DNA from: Oceaniglobus roseus
GTDB lineage: Bacteria > Pseudomonadota > Alphaproteobacteria > Rhodobacterales > Rhodobacteraceae
DNA length: 64,000 bases
Assembly: GCF_002869745.1 (NCBI RefSeq)
Contig: NZ_PNOS01000001.1
Coordinates: 186,001 to 250,000, forward strand
Direction of reading: 5' to 3'
The notes beneath the pieces are model-generated. The model made no database searches, was not told the origin of the DNA, and saw only the letters and a list, made by a program, of their open reading frames with translations. This document shows positions 36,441 through 42,809 of the stretch, piece by piece; position 1 is the first letter of the stretch; each line of letters begins with the position of its first letter. Both the position numbers and the translations under genes were made by a program.

Positions 36441-37487
36441 TCAGCGCAGCGGAAAAGAATCGCGCCAGCGGGCGCGGAACAGCGCCCGTTTCTGCGCGTC
36501 CAGCGCCAGCAGCAGGGCCGGGCCAAGCGCGATCGGCCGGCGGATCGAGGCGGCGCTGCCGGGCATGTCCAGAAGCGTGCCGTCCGCCCCGTCGAGCGGC
36601 ACGATCAGCAGCGCCCGCTCCAGCGCCTCGCGCCCCGGCGGCGACAGCAGGAAGTCGACGAAGGCGCCCGCCAGCCCGGACGATCGCGCCCCGGCGGGGA
36701 TCATCGCCGCCCGGCTGAGAACCAGCGTGTAGTCCCCCGGCGCCACGACGCCGAGGCGCGCATCCTCCGCCGCCCGCGCCAGGGCATAGGAGCCGAGCAC
36801 GTTGTAGGCGACAAGAAAGCGCCCCGCGATCACCGCGTCGATGATCTCGGCCGAGCAGCAGGTCGCCACCGCGCCCGCGCCGCCGAAGCTTTCCATCAGC
36901 CCGCCGAAGGTCGTCGCCTCCAGCGAATCCGCGAAGGCCAGCAGGTAGCCGAGGCCCGACTCCTCGATGTCGTAGGTGGCGATCCGTCCGCGGAAGCGGC
37001 TTTCGGCCGGGCGCAGCAGGTCGAGAAGGTCGAAGCGCGAACGCGGCACCTCGCCCTCGGGCACGAGGTCGCGGTTGTAGACCATGACCGCGGGCTCCTG
37101 CGTCACGCCCCACAGCTCGTCCCGCCAGCGCAGCGCCCCCGGCAGGGCCGCCGTCAGGGCCGAGCGCCAGGGCTGCGCGCAGCCCTCGTTCACCAGGTCG
37201 ACCATCTGGTGCACCGCCGAGCTCAGTACCAGGTCCGCGCCCGCCGCGCCATCGGCGCACTCCGTCCGCGCCAGCCGATAGAGGTCGTTCGACCCCCATT
37301 GCTCGTAGTCCAGCCCGACGGTCGGCCGGGTCTCGAGGAAGGCCGCGATGACCGGTCCCATCGCCTCCAGATCGGTGGTCGAGCGCACCACCAGCCGCTC
37401 GGCCGCCGCCTCCGGTCCGAAGGCCATCACCCGCTCCTGCGCGAAGGCGCCTTGGACGAGGCAGAGCCACAGCGCCAGCCACCGCAT
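36441..37487 (-). CDS. Periplasmic substrate-binding protein cotranscribed with TctDE
   Basis: This 348-residue protein has a signal peptide (cleavage near QGAFAQER). It follows the class of iron/thiamine/spermidine-type ABC binding proteins: LVVRSTTDLEAMGPVIAAFLE, then WGVTQEPAVMVYNRDLV and a C-terminal SGLAGAFVDFLLSPPGREALE. No permease or ATPase gene is nearby. The ATG at 37487 overlaps the kinase stop by 1 nt (TAATG), so it is coupled to tctE. It may be a periplasmic co-sensor for the kinase. Confidence 0.75.
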   Translation of the reverse strand: MRWLALWLCLVQGAFAQERVMAFGPEAAAERLVVRSTTDLEAMGPVIAAFLETRPTVGLDYEQWGSNDLYRLARTECADGAAGADLVLSSAVHQMVDLVNEGCAQPWRSALTAALPGALRWRDELWGVTQEPAVMVYNRDLVPEGEVPRSRFDLLDLLRPAESRFRGRIATYDIEESGLGYLLAFADSLEATTFGGLMESFGGAGAVATCCSAEIIDAVIAGRFLVAYNVLGSYALARAAEDARLGVVAPGDYTLVLSRAAMIPAGARSSGLAGAFVDFLLSPPGREALERALLIVPLDGADGTLLDMPGSAASIRRPIALGPALLLALDAQKRALFRARWRDSFPLR

Positions 37488-38824
37488 TACGCGGCCCCCT
37501 CCAGGCACAGCGCCGCCTCGAACCCGCCCGCGCGCCGCTCCAGCCGCAGCCGCCCGCCGTGCCCTTCCGCCACCGCCGCGGCGATGGACAGGCCCAGGCC
37601 GCTGCCCCCGGCCGAGCCGACGAACCGCTCGCCCACCCGTGCCAGCACCGCCTCTCCCGGCCCCGCGCCGTTGTCGCGGACGTAGAGGACCGGACCGCGC
37701 ACCCCCAGCCGCACCGGCCCCCTGCCGTGACGCAGCGCGTTGTGCAGCAGGTTCTTCCCCGCCTCCGCCAGCGCCACGGCGTCGGCGCGCACCATCACCG
37801 GGTCGTCCGGCAGGTCCAGTTCCACGACGCCGCCCGCCGCCTCGGCATCCTCCAGCACGTCCAGCGCGATGTCCCGCAGATCGACCAGCGCCCGCGGCTC
37901 GGTGTCCGAGCGGTGGGCGATCAGAGCCTGGCTCAGCATCTGGTCCAGAAGGCGGCTCAGCGACAGCGTGCGTTCATGGATCCGCGCCACGATCCGCGCC
38001 CGCGTTTCGGGGTCCGCCTCTCCGGCGGCCAGCTGCGCCTGCGCCCGGATCGCCGCCACCGGCGTCCTCAGCTGGTGCGCCGCGTCCCCGATCAGCGACC
38101 GGTTCGACACGAGCTGCCGGTCCAGCCGGGCCATGAAGTCGTTCAGCGGCGACAGCATCTCGGCCACCTCCCGCGGCACCGACAGGTCGAGCGGCGTCAG
38201 GTCCGTCGGATCGCGCCCCCGGAGCGCCGCGCCGATCCGCGGCAGCGGCAGCAGGGCCGAGCGCAGGGCGAGCCAGGCGAGAAGGGCGATCAGCGCCCCC
38301 GCCGCCCCCAGCACGGCGACGGCATTCCCGGCGATGTCCCGCGCCAGCGCCCGGCGCGCCAGCAGGGTCTGGCCGACCACCACCGTCACCGGGCCGGAGA
38401 AGCTGCGCTCGGCAAAGCGCCGTGTCAGCGCGACATAGCGGGCCGCCTCCGCGCCGAAGGCCCCGTCGTAGAACACAGTCTCCCCCGCCTCCCGCGGCAG
38501 CGGCGCCGCGGCGCTTCCCGTCACCGTCTGCCCGTCGGGGCCGGTCACGCGATAGCGGATGCGGTCGTCCGGGGCGAAGGCCAGCAGCTCGAACGCCGTC
38601 ACCGGCATGTCGACCACCAGCGTCCCGTCGCGCACCGAGATCGACTCGGCGATGCTCTGCGCGGCGCCGAGCAGCAGCCGGTCGTAGATCTCCCGCGCCG
38701 CCTGCCGCCCGTAGCCGAGCGCGGCGGCCAGCACCACGATGCCCCCCGCCACCAGCACCGCCGCCATGGCGAGCGCCACCCGCGCCTTCAGCGAGATCGC
38801 CGGCCGCCGCAACGCCTCAGCCAC
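37487..38824 (-). CDS. tctE: TctE-type sensor histidine kinase
   Basis: This 445-residue kinase has two transmembrane helices (about residues 14-36 and 165-188) around a periplasmic 2CSK_N domain (DRLLLGAAQSIAES, MPVTAFELLAF). A short HAMP-like linker leads to the H-box with H250 (GDAAHQLRTPVAAIRAQ), the N-box GKNLLHNALRHG and the G-boxes VRDNGAGPGE and GGSGLGLSIA. It is the sensor that controls tricarboxylate uptake through TctD. Its start overlaps the end of tctD by 8 nt. Confidence 0.92.
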   Translation of the reverse strand: MAEALRRPAISLKARVALAMAAVLVAGGIVVLAAALGYGRQAAREIYDRLLLGAAQSIAESISVRDGTLVVDMPVTAFELLAFAPDDRIRYRVTGPDGQTVTGSAAAPLPREAGETVFYDGAFGAEAARYVALTRRFAERSFSGPVTVVVGQTLLARRALARDIAGNAVAVLGAAGALIALLAWLALRSALLPLPRIGAALRGRDPTDLTPLDLSVPREVAEMLSPLNDFMARLDRQLVSNRSLIGDAAHQLRTPVAAIRAQAQLAAGEADPETRARIVARIHERTLSLSRLLDQMLSQALIAHRSDTEPRALVDLRDIALDVLEDAEAAGGVVELDLPDDPVMVRADAVALAEAGKNLLHNALRHGRGPVRLGVRGPVLYVRDNGAGPGEAVLARVGERFVGSAGGSGLGLSIAAAVAEGHGGRLRLERRAGGFEAALCLEGAA

Positions 38825-39488
38825 CCTCGGCGATCCTGTAGCCGAGCCCGCGGTGCGTCTCGATCACCGCGCCGCTGCCCGCCAGCTTCTTCCTCAGCCG
38901 CGCGATGTAGAGCTCGACCGCGTTCACCCCCACTTCGCTGTCGGCGAAGGAGAACAGCCCGTCGAACAGCCGCTCCTTGCTCAGGATGTGTCCCGGGTGC
39001 CCCATCAGCAGCGACAGCAGCGCCATCTCCCGCCGGGTCAGCGGCAGCGGCTTGCCGCCCACCCGCACCACCTGCGCCGAGGGGTCGTAGTCGATGGCGC
39101 CGAGCCTCAGCCGCGCCTCCACCCGCCCGGCCTCGCGCCGGGTCAGGGCGCGCACCCGCGCCTCCAACTCGCGCAGGTCGAAGGGTTTCACGAGGTAATC
39201 GTCCGCCCCGTCGTCCAGCGCGTCCACTCGCGCCGAGACCTCGATCCGCGCCGTCAGCATCAGCACCGGCACCCGGTTTCCGCCCCGCCGCAGCGACCGC
39301 AGGAAATCCCGCCCGTCGCCGTCGGGCAGGTTGATGTCCAGCACCACCACGTCATAGCCCTGCACGCCGACATGGTCCCGCGCCGCGGCGAGGTCGCCCG
39401 CGATGTCGCAGGCATAGCCCGCCCGCCCCAGCGCGGCCGCCACCGCCTCGGCCACGTCGGCCGCATCCTCCACCACCAGCACGCGCAT
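38817..39488 (-). CDS. tctD: TctD-type OmpR-family response regulator
   Basis: This 223-residue regulator has a receiver domain (acidic pocket E7/D8, phospho-acceptor D51 in VVLDINLPDGDG, K101 in YLVKPFD). Its OmpR/PhoB winged helix is about residues 125-220 (PLTRREMALLSLLMGHPGHI, then GVNAVELYIARLRKKL and RGLGYRI). The ATG at 39488 has GGGAGGA upstream; the longer frame runs into a palindromic repeat. It is divergent from tctCBA, whose promoter has a tandem repeat that fits its DNA-binding mode. Confidence 0.93.
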   Translation of the reverse strand: MRVLVVEDAADVAEAVAAALGRAGYACDIAGDLAAARDHVGVQGYDVVVLDINLPDGDGRDFLRSLRRGGNRVPVLMLTARIEVSARVDALDDGADDYLVKPFDLRELEARVRALTRREAGRVEARLRLGAIDYDPSAQVVRVGGKPLPLTRREMALLSLLMGHPGHILSKERLFDGLFSFADSEVGVNAVELYIARLRKKLAGSGAVIETHRGLGYRIAEGG

Positions 39489-39566
39489 GACGTCCTCCCT
39501 GCCGGAGCCTAGTGCGCCGGGACCGTCCCCTGCAACAGAGCGTGCATGCCGCCCTTCCGTCACGGG

Positions 39567-39628
39567 GGATGGGTGAATCACCCATCCTACGCGCCGCGCC
39601 GATCGTAGGGTGGGTGATTCACCCACCC
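39567..39628. repeat. REP-like inverted doublet
   Basis: Two near-perfect 21-nt palindromes (GGATGGGTG AAT CACCCATCC at 39567-39587 and GGGTGGGTG ATT CACCCACCC at 39608-39628) face each other. They are joined by a linker whose ends CCTACG and CGTAGG also pair. This is the layout of a REP doublet of the GTAGGGTGGGT type. It is located between tctD and tctC. Confidence 0.75.
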
Positions 39629-39668
39629 GCCCCGGCGAAGATCGGCGCAGCCTGCGCCCTTCCGCGGC

Positions 39669-39690
39669 ATGACAGGTCCATGACAGGTCC
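39669..39690 (+). promoter_or_regulatory. Tandem 11-bp direct repeat, candidate TctD site
   Basis: ATGACAGGTCC occurs twice, head to tail with no gap. An 11-bp period is what OmpR-family dimers use. The first copy overlaps the position expected for the -35 box of the -10 element TATAGG at 39697-39702, as in activator-dependent promoters. Confidence 0.6.
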
Positions 39691-39696
39691 GCGCCC

Positions 39697-39702
39697 TATA
39701 GG
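39697..39702 (+). promoter_or_regulatory. Candidate -10 box of tctC promoter
   Basis: TATAGG, 60 nt upstream of the tctC ATG. The hexamer 17 nt before it is AGGTCC, a poor -35, consistent with a need for an activator bound at the tandem repeat. Confidence 0.45.
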
Positions 39703-39761
39703 CTTTCCCAAGGGCCGGGACACAACGGACCCGGCCCGTGATATCTGTGGAGGAGACCACC

Positions 39762-40754
39762 ATGACACTCACCGCCCTCCGGCGCGGCCTGACCGCTGCC
39801 GCCCTGATCGCCTGCGCGCCGCTGTCGGCCCTGGCCCAGGACTTCACCCCCTCGAACCCCGAGTGCATCGCCCCGGCGAACCCCGGCGGAGGCTGGGACT
39901 TCACCTGCCGCCAGGTCGGCAAGTCGCTCCAGGACGAAGGGCTGATCCCCTCGACCATGCAGGTCGTGAACCTGTCGGGCGGCGGCGGCGGCGTGGCCTT
40001 CGCCGAAGTCGTGAACAAGCGCAACGACGACAACGACCTGATCGTCGCCGCCTCCTCGGCCACCGCGACCCGGCTCGCCCAGAACGCCTTTCCGGGCAAC
40101 ACCATGGACCAGGTCCGCTGGCTGGCCTCGGTCGGCGCCGACTACGGCGTGATCGCCGTCGCCAAGGACAGCGAGATCAACACCCTGCCCAAGCTGATGG
40201 ACAAGATGAAGGCCGACCCGAAATCCGTCGCCATCGGCGGCGGCTCGGCCGTCGGCGGCTGGGATCACCTGAAGGTACTGATCGCCGCCCAGGAAGCCGG
40301 GATCGAGGACGTCCGCCAGGTCAAGTACATCGCCTTCGCGGGCGGCGGCGAGGCGGTGACCCAGCTTCTGGCCGGCTCGCTCCAGGCCTTCACGGGCGAC
40401 CTGTCCGAGGCCAAGGGCTTCGTCGACTCCGGCGACATCAAGGTGCTGGCGGTGCTTGCGCCCGAGCGTCTGGGCGGCGAGTTCGCCGACATCCCGACCG
40501 CGAAGGAGCAGGGGATCGACGCCATCGGCGCCAACTGGCGCGGCTTCTACGCCCCCGGCGGGATGAGCGACGCGGCCTACGACTACTGGGTCGACGCCAT
40601 CGCCAAGCTCTACGCCTCGGACGAGTGGAAGCAGGTGATGGAGACCAACGGTCTTGCCCCGCTCGACCTCCACGGCGCCGAGTTCCAGGCCTTCGTGCAG
40701 GAGTCGGTGAACAACATCACCGCCCTCTCGAAAGAGATCGGCATCATCCAGTAA
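39762..40754 (+). CDS. tctC: Tripartite tricarboxylate transporter binding protein TctC
   Basis: This 330-residue periplasmic protein of the Bug/TctC family has a signal peptide (cleavage near LSALAQDF). It shows ECIAPANPGGGWDFTCRQVG (ligand loop near residue 40) and MQVVNLSGGGGGVAFAEVV, and DPKSVAIGGGSAVGGWDHL further on. The ATG at 39762 has GGAGGAG upstream. First gene of tctCBA. Citrate or another tricarboxylate is the classic ligand, but the family is broad. Confidence 0.92.
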   Translation: MTLTALRRGLTAAALIACAPLSALAQDFTPSNPECIAPANPGGGWDFTCRQVGKSLQDEGLIPSTMQVVNLSGGGGGVAFAEVVNKRNDDNDLIVAASSATATRLAQNAFPGNTMDQVRWLASVGADYGVIAVAKDSEINTLPKLMDKMKADPKSVAIGGGSAVGGWDHLKVLIAAQEAGIEDVRQVKYIAFAGGGEAVTQLLAGSLQAFTGDLSEAKGFVDSGDIKVLAVLAPERLGGEFADIPTAKEQGIDAIGANWRGFYAPGGMSDAAYDYWVDAIAKLYASDEWKQVMETNGLAPLDLHGAEFQAFVQESVNNITALSKEIGIIQ

Positions 40755-40825: not shown

Positions 40826-41257
40826 ATGAGCGACCGCATCTTCGGCGGCATCGGCCTTCTGCTTGCCGCCATCTTCGCCTGGCAGGCGACCATCATCCAG
40901 GAGAGCTTCCTCTCCGATGCCGTCGGCCCCAAGACATTCCCGCTGGTGATCGCCGCCGTCATGGCGCTGTCGTCCCTCTATTTCCTGGTCAAGCCCGACC
41001 CCGAGCCGGAATGGCCGACCATGGGCCGCCTGGCCGAGATCGGCCTCGCCGTCCTCGTGATGATCGCCTATGCCGAGCTTCTGCCCGAGGTCGGCTTCCT
41101 GATCGCCACCGCCGTCGCCTCCGCCTATCTCACCTGGCGCCTCGGCACCAATCCGCTGCAAAGCCTCGTCGTCGGGGTCTGCACCTCGGTCGGCATCTAC
41201 GTCGTCTTCAAACTGGTGCTGGGGCTCTCGCTCGCCTCCGGTCCCCTCGGATTCTGA
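40826..41257 (+). CDS. tctB: Tripartite tricarboxylate transporter small membrane protein TctB
   Basis: This 143-residue protein has four transmembrane helices. It contains TctB family features such as AVGPKTFPLVIAAVMALSSLYF near residues 32-54 and ASAYLTWRLGTNPLQSLVVG in the second half. The ATG at 40826 follows GGGAGGGG. It lies 10 nt upstream of tctA. Confidence 0.88.
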   Translation: MSDRIFGGIGLLLAAIFAWQATIIQESFLSDAVGPKTFPLVIAAVMALSSLYFLVKPDPEPEWPTMGRLAEIGLAVLVMIAYAELLPEVGFLIATAVASAYLTWRLGTNPLQSLVVGVCTSVGIYVVFKLVLGLSLASGPLGF

Positions 41258-41267
41258 GGCCGCATCC

Positions 41268-42809
41268 ATGGACACCCTCGCTTCCCTCGCCGACGGCTTC
41301 GTTGTCGCGCTGACCTTCCAGAACATCCTGCTGGCCCTCGTCGGCTGCTTCCTCGGCACGATCATGGGCGCGCTGCCGGGCCTCGGGCCCAGCAACGGCG
41401 TCGCGATCCTGATCCCCGTCGCCTTCACCCTCGGCCTCGGGCCGACGCCCGCGCTGATCCTGCTGACCTCGGTCTACTACGGCGCGATGTACGGCGGCCG
41501 GATCTCGTCGATCCTCCTCAACATCCCCGGCGACGAACCGGCGCTGATGACCTGCCTCGACGGCTACCCGATGGCGAAACAGGGCCGTGCGGGCGAGGCG
41601 CTCGCGCTGTCGGGCATCGCCAGCTTCGTCGGCGCCTTCTTCGCCACCTGGGGCCTCGTCCTCCTCGCCCCGCAGCTCGTCAAGGTCGCCCTGCTGTTCG
41701 GCCCGGCCGAATACTTCGCTCTGTTTACCCTCGCCTTCGCCACCCTCGGCGGCATCTCGGCCACCAACCAGGCGAAATCCGCCTTCGCCGCCGCCCTCGG
41801 CCTCGGCCTCGCGATGATCGGCGTCGACACCCAGACCGGCGTGCCGCGCTTCACCTTCGGCGAGGTGCACCTCTACGACGGCATCGACTTCCTCGTCGCC
41901 ATCGTCGGCCTGTTCGCGCTGTCCGAGGTCTTCATCTTCCTCGAACACCGCGGCTCGGCGGAAGAGGAAGCCGCCAAGCCGAAGATCGAGATCGGCAGGA
42001 TCGTCCCCTCCTGGGGCCTGATCCGCTACTGCACCCCCACGATGCTGCGCTCGACGGTCCTCGGCTTCATCGCGGGCGTCCTGCCGGGGGCGGGCGCGTC
42101 CCTCGGCTCGTTCATCTCCTACTCGATCGAGAAGAAGGTGGTCGACTCCTCGGGCAAGACCTTCGGCAAGGGCGACCCGCGCGGCGTCGCCGCGCCAGAG
42201 GCCGGCAACAACGCCGCCGCCGGGGGCGCGCTGGTGCCGATGCTGGCCCTCGGCGTGCCGGGCTCCGGCACCACCGCGGTGCTGCTCGCCGTGCTGCTGT
42301 CGCTCAACATCACGCCGGGGCCGCTCCTGTTCTCGCAGAACCCCGACGTGGTCTGGGGCCTGATCGCGGCGCTGTTCATCGGCAACCTGATGCTGCTCGC
42401 CATGAACATTCCCATGGTCGGCCTCTTCACCCGCGTCCTGATGGTGCCGCCGCGGATCCTGATGCCGGTGGTGGCGATGATCTCCTTCGTCGGGATCTAC
42501 GGCATCTCCGGCTCCAGCTTCGACCTGCTGGTGATGATCGCCTTCGGCGTCGGCGGCTGGGCGCTGAGGAAGCTCGACGTGCCGCTGGTGCCGGTGATCC
42601 TCGGCACGCTGCTCGGCAACGAGATGGAGGTGAACCTGCGCCGCGCCGTCACCATCGACGACGGCAACTACGGCATCCTCGTCGGCTCGCCACTCGCCAT
42701 CGCGCTCTGGACCATCGCCATCGTCGGCTTCATCCTGCCGATCTTCGTCGGCGGCATTCTGAAGCGGCGTATGAAGCAGGCCCACGAGGAAGGGTCGCTG
42801 ACGGATTGA
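41268..42809 (+). CDS. tctA: Tripartite tricarboxylate transporter large membrane protein TctA
   Basis: This 513-residue channel protein has about 12 transmembrane segments. The two TctA signatures are GTIMGALPGLGPSNGVAILIP with YYGAMYGGRISSILLNIPGDEPA (residues 25-95) and GVLPGAGASLGSFISYSIEKK (about 270-290). GNNAAAGGALVPMLALGVPGSGTTAVLL follows. Last gene of the unit, followed by a perfect hairpin. Confidence 0.95.
   Translation: MDTLASLADGFVVALTFQNILLALVGCFLGTIMGALPGLGPSNGVAILIPVAFTLGLGPTPALILLTSVYYGAMYGGRISSILLNIPGDEPALMTCLDGYPMAKQGRAGEALALSGIASFVGAFFATWGLVLLAPQLVKVALLFGPAEYFALFTLAFATLGGISATNQAKSAFAAALGLGLAMIGVDTQTGVPRFTFGEVHLYDGIDFLVAIVGLFALSEVFIFLEHRGSAEEEAAKPKIEIGRIVPSWGLIRYCTPTMLRSTVLGFIAGVLPGAGASLGSFISYSIEKKVVDSSGKTFGKGDPRGVAAPEAGNNAAAGGALVPMLALGVPGSGTTAVLLAVLLSLNITPGPLLFSQNPDVVWGLIAALFIGNLMLLAMNIPMVGLFTRVLMVPPRILMPVVAMISFVGIYGISGSSFDLLVMIAFGVGGWALRKLDVPLVPVILGTLLGNEMEVNLRRAVTIDDGNYGILVGSPLAIALWTIAIVGFILPIFVGGILKRRMKQAHEEGSLTD

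Follow-up and report, generated by a model that had tools for sequence, protein, structure and literature searches.

The ungapped double 11-bp repeat between the divergent tctD and tctC genes of Oceaniglobus roseus is most probably the operator through which TctD activates tctCBA, with TctD binding in place of a −35 box; we put the probability of this reading at about 0.88. In the window (the whole 64,000-nt stretch of DNA that was analysed), the repeat precedes a plus-strand operon for a tripartite tricarboxylate transporter, made up of tctC, encoding the periplasmic receptor (39762–40754; PF03401, 1.5e-20), tctB (40826–41257; PF07331, 2.7e-20) and tctA (41268–42809; PF01970, 2.3e-150). On the minus strand lie tctD (38817–39488; PF00072 and PF00486), which encodes an OmpR/PhoB-type response regulator and presumed binder of the repeat and whose divergent position next door had been pointed out in the first-pass annotation, and tctE (37487–38824; PF08521, PF00512 and PF02518), which encodes a sensor kinase with a 2CSK_N periplasmic domain. 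The best NCBIfam model for the tctD product is NF012023 TctD, at 211 bits of the 337 required of a curated orthologue; its domain make-up and synteny fit TctD. A gene for a periplasmic solute-binding protein (36441–37508; PF01547/PF13531) overlaps the end of tctE, and the order tctD, tctE, binding protein gene is kept in all 12 relatives examined (51–72% identity); this binding protein may be a co-sensor for TctE.

Two abutting copies of ATGACAGGTCC occupy 39669–39679 and 39680–39690 on the plus strand (the duplication runs from 39668 to 39690 when the preceding C is counted), an exact match to the double repeat described by the first-pass annotation. That description had also placed the end of the first copy 17 nt before a TATAGG −10 box and called the −35 position poor. 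The coordinates agree with the former (39680–39696, with TATAGG at 39697–39702), and the latter is borne out by the hexamer at the −35 position, AGGTCC, which matches TTGACA at 2 of 6 positions, and by the lack of any sigma-70 hexamer pair in 39480–39780. The TTGACA-like ATGACA was ruled out as a −35, its two copies lying 22 and 11 nt from TATAGG. The conserved core of the half-sites, TGACAGGTC, as defined by alignment of relatives, covers 39670–39678 (about −39 to −31) in the first copy and 39681–39689 (about −28 to −20) in the second, given a transcript start predicted at 39709, ∼7 nt past the −10 box, from that box alone; a ribosome-binding site for tctC, GTGGAGGAG, follows at 39747–39755. 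By these positions the element would span about −39 to −20 and replace the −35 instead of merely overlapping it. A tandem this long with a perfect 11-bp period occurs once in the window; 40 first-order Markov simulations of the window gave a mean of 0.1 and a maximum of 2. That rarity is suggestive only; what settles that the repeat is non-chance is its conservation in relatives. A large inverted repeat, built from the near-identical palindromes GGATGGGTGAATCACCCATCC and GGGTGGGTGATTCACCCACCC, lies between tctD and the operator at 39564–39631; this genome has a single copy of the core palindrome. The tctD–tctC gap is 274 nt in the window versus mostly 115–206 nt in relatives, and the palindrome pair is an insertion-like element.

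Conservation of the repeat next to tctC in relatives was one of the points on which the first-pass annotation had staked its proposal. We compared 74 tctC upstream regions with one scorer: 54 close orthologues, comprising every full-length match of ≥67% identity found by searching the genus and the family (one partial match was excluded), and 20 members of a second TctC subfamily (about 50–60% identity) chosen from about 90 further matches. Direct repeats resembling TGACAGGTTnnTGACAGSTT score at least 14 of 18 in 57 of 57 regions with a divergent tctD (range 14–18), whereas regions without tctD score 10–14, with 1 of 17 reaching the lowest threshold of 14 and 0 of 17 reaching 15. The opposite strand scores 13 at most in both groups, and 0.5% of resampled sequences score 14. 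In the close set a divergent tctD-like gene is found upstream in 48 of 54 loci and is absent from 6; on the tctC strand, TGACAGGTT-like repeats at 11-bp spacing occur in 48 of 48 loci with tctD and 0 of 6 without. In the second subfamily all 9 loci with tctD carry the box, and 11 loci are without tctD. Fisher values overstate the case because the loci are related; outside the window's genus, the close set comes from different genera. No TctD orthologue was found in the six tctD-less close genomes, where the best regulators show 44–47% identity or nothing appears at 1e-40, nor in wider flanks. The 11-bp period, the head-to-tail orientation and the position over a missing −35 all hold, and in relatives, too, the box lies at a tct promoter beside divergent tctD, where a TctD operator would be expected. 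These comparisons support the earlier interpretation of the repeat as a candidate TctD operator. In one locus without tctD, a half-site is retained at a similar distance from tctC, 7 nt before TGTAGG in the register of the second half-site; at a guess, it may be a relic of the operator.

When the 48 close promoters with tctD are aligned, the two half-sites stand out, the flanks upstream of them are near-random, and TA follows half-site 2 at a set distance of 7 nt. The G, A, A, G and T of the core of half-site 1 are invariant (48/48), and at the −10 register T is found in 47 and A in 48 of the promoters, so that the 7-nt spacing of TA holds in 47 of 48. The conserved half-site in relatives is TGACAGGTT, of which the window carries a variant with GGTC. 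Two direct half-sites of similar sequence at an 11-bp period are the hallmark of tandem operators of OmpR/PhoB-type regulators, and judged by its form the repeat is an instance of this known kind. A class-II-like promoter is marked by the lack of a normal −35 and by a fixed spacing from activator site to −10; the window's promoter lacks a normal −35, and the spacing is kept in 47 of 48 close orthologues and in 0 of 9 loci of the second subfamily. Promoter geometry is not universal across TctC subfamilies, because TA is absent from the usual −10 register in the second one (0/9). Half-site 2 reads TGTCAG in 8 of these 9 loci.

In the mechanism that we propose, TctE would phosphorylate TctD once its signal is present, and a TctD dimer would bind both TGACAGGTC half-sites head-to-tail, one helical turn apart, at about −39 to −20. 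Bound TctD would then hold RNA polymerase aligned to the −10 box and in this class-II-like manner turn on tctCBA, whose substrate may be a tricarboxylate, TctC belonging to a broad family. For the direction of control we infer activation from homology and from promoter geometry: according to the available text of PMC10865840, citrate cannot induce the opdH-tct promoter of Pseudomonas aeruginosa unless both tctD and tctE are present. Overlap of the box with the promoter core could alternatively mean that TctD binds but represses, blocking RNA polymerase at −39 to −20 until released, and there is a precedent in the PhoB-dependent genes that TctD represses in P. aeruginosa (PMC4513871, in the portion available). 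We consider this improbable, however, since induction of the homologous promoter in P. aeruginosa depends on TctD (PMC10865840). Moreover, a repressor would require neither the −10 distance that is fixed in 47 of 48 promoters nor a missing −35.

PhoB, which activates in a class-II-like manner, binds the Pho box, CTGTCAT-N4-CTGTCAT, in a 7-4-7 arrangement. The minus strand of the site reads CTGTCAT-GGAC-CTGTCAT, with an identical core; the Pho box thus resembles the operator in its 11-bp period and in its TGTCA, the reverse complement of TGACA. PhoB might accordingly bind here, either by itself or competing with TctD, and so link the operon or tctD to phosphate supply, all the more as CTGTCA-type triple repeats precede a pstS-like gene in the same genome and as PhoB and TctD are described as sharing promoters in P. 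aeruginosa (PMC4513871, in part). Nevertheless, box presence tracks tctD presence, whereas the Pho box tracks phosphate genes; a full CTGTCAT would call for an A ahead of TGACAG, present in only 18 of 48 promoters at each copy, and what is conserved instead is the GGTT tail, which the Pho box lacks. In addition, the pstS repeats face the other way relative to their gene, on the strand opposite to the promoter, and the distant TctD boxes read TGAAAG, with no Pho core. These points weaken the Pho box as the sole reading, and we regard a role for PhoB at this site as very unlikely.

Just as unlikely, in our estimate, is that the main role of the box is autoregulation of tctD: the box does lie between both start codons, no more than 20 nt from the regulator start in some loci, and TctD controls its own gene in P. 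aeruginosa (PMC4513871, in the text available), but it is towards tctC that the −10 register is conserved, and in the 48 aligned promoters the 45 nt flanking the box towards tctD hold no conserved block. A functionless chance tandem can be rejected with near certainty, for although perfect short tandems of period 6–30 arise at ∼0.5 per simulated window, all 57 comparable loci conserve this repeat, and it is found further afield as well.

Of 388 family genomes, 37 contain a strict promoter pattern, each of them a single time, with 3 matches for the reversed control. Thirty of the 37 sites lie before the tctC orthologue. Of the remaining seven, three lie ahead of further TctC genes (by Pfam), two ahead of other periplasmic-binding genes and one ahead of a citrate-binding ATP-grasp gene, and the last has no Pfam match; a TctD-like gene lies within the retrieved stretch at four of these seven. 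With two mismatches from its GGTC tails, the window site falls outside the 37. These counts suggest that the TctD operator is near to a single site per genome, and the operator consensus proposed here appears to be new; our literature searches found no published description of an alphaproteobacterial TctD operator consensus. In one relative (locus L300), the strict box near 2001–2020 precedes the gene that combines ATP-grasp with citrate-binding domains, and the 4 kb retrieved there contain no TctD-like gene; the box is possibly a second citrate-metabolism target, or a chance match.

In the window's genome the next-best site (two mismatches) adjoins the gene for a TctD paralogue, whose start is 12 nt away. 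This paralogue (C4:48533–49217; 41% identity) has its own TctE-like kinase, its box, TGACAGGTTCTGGACAGGAT, stands 7 nt before TATTGT, and its divergent neighbour is by eye a secreted TctC-like gene, with no Pfam match. We rejected a larger TctD regulon in this genome, since the next-best site adjoins a paralogue with its own kinase, and the site looks like the paralogue's own. Four other TctD-like regulators (43–47% identity) lie beside related but different 11-bp repeats, CTTCAGnnnnnCGTCAG, which adjoin other divergent genes; the TctD-like clade seems to have several box types.

The box extends well beyond the family. Among the best 30 loci by the NCBIfam TctD model in 398 genomes of the phylum, 25 have a box score of at least 14; all 25 boxes are TGAAAG rather than TGACAG, and TA is at the same register in 22. 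Nine of 10 further loci of the class carry a box, five of the nine with TA at the register. A pattern scan of public, named genomes, which allowed A or C at base 4 of either half and was, like the scorer, blind to other letters there, returned at least 120 sites in at least 118 stretches, many from Pseudomonas; other genera among the matches listed are Jannaschia, Sulfitobacter, Thioclava and Sphingomonas, together with halomonads. A divergent TctD-like gene lies within 450 nt at 94 of 120 sites among the matches listed, and 70 of those 94 also have a TctA or TctC match downstream; of the remaining listed sites, 17 have a TctA or TctC match only and 9 have neither. The window's box and TctD resemble their Jannaschia, Sulfitobacter and Thioclava counterparts.

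Two characterized systems invite comparison. In P. aeruginosa, a TctD motif is described at the opdH-tctCBA operon and at tctD (PMC4513871, in the portion available), and the likeness extends to the type of regulator, the kind of transporter operon, a bipartite motif at the target promoter and a positive effect on the operon. However, the named Pseudomonas loci carry TGAAAG half-sites where the window has TGACAG, and related Pseudomonas loci carry TGAAAGGTT repeats. PmrA/BasR is among the solved structures closest to TctD, and the PmrA box of Klebsiella and Salmonella likewise consists of tandem hexamers with a 5-bp spacer, bound head-to-tail (PMC3973317 and PMC4660055, both in part). The spacer of the window repeat agrees with the PmrA box as given in the text available (CTTAAG/XTTAAT, 5-bp spacer; PMC3973317), but the letters, TGACAG, differ from the CTTAAG/CTTAAT half-sites; the PmrA box also serves polymyxin-resistance genes, and PmrA has His195 where TctD has Ala196. 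Among the matches listed there was no complex of RNA polymerase with a TctD- or PmrA-type regulator.

The difference between His195 and Ala196 falls in the recognition helix. In an alignment with E. coli BasR/PmrA, N189 and A196 of TctD correspond to N188 and H195 of PmrA, and in the Klebsiella PmrA–DNA complex Asn188 and His195 are among the base-contacting residues (PMC4660055, in part), the Klebsiella and E. coli numbering being treated as equal. We assembled 188 regulator–box pairs, from 93 of 107 regulators with a box score of at least 14 and 95 of 121 listed scan sites with a regulator. Among the pairs listed, regulators with His196 go with TGAAAG at half-site 1 in 90 of 90 cases and at half-site 2 in 89 of 90, and those with Asn189 and Ala, Gly or Ser at 196 go with TGACAG in 86 of 86 and 76 of 86, respectively. 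Mixed boxes occur mostly with Thr/Ser196 regulators, which often have one TGACAG and one TGAAAG half-site, and the two Thr189/Ala196 regulators have TGAAAG (again among the pairs listed). Recognition of half-site base 4 by residues 189 and 196 of TctD-type regulators has, we judge, an even chance of being correct; we treat it as a hypothesis because many other protein columns also differ between the TGACAG and TGAAAG groups (3 of 30 distant regulators were left out of the column comparison) and because independent changes are few, base 4 of half-site 1 changing only four times on a tree of 116 thinned regulators built with the helix columns omitted. A statistically proven recognition code was rejected, as sign tests on independent pairs were unable to reach 0.05.

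A loose annotation, tctD beside tctCBA, thus becomes a defined candidate operator and promoter, usually with one strict site per genome, and the operator sequence offers a route to link unassigned TctC transporters with their regulators. Comparing the phylum suggests how homologous regulators of homologous operons came to diverge by a single DNA letter, a matter that bears on how two-component systems are insulated from one another. If true, the reading of base 4 would amount to a protein-to-DNA recognition code by which operators could be predicted from sequence throughout a large clade of regulators.
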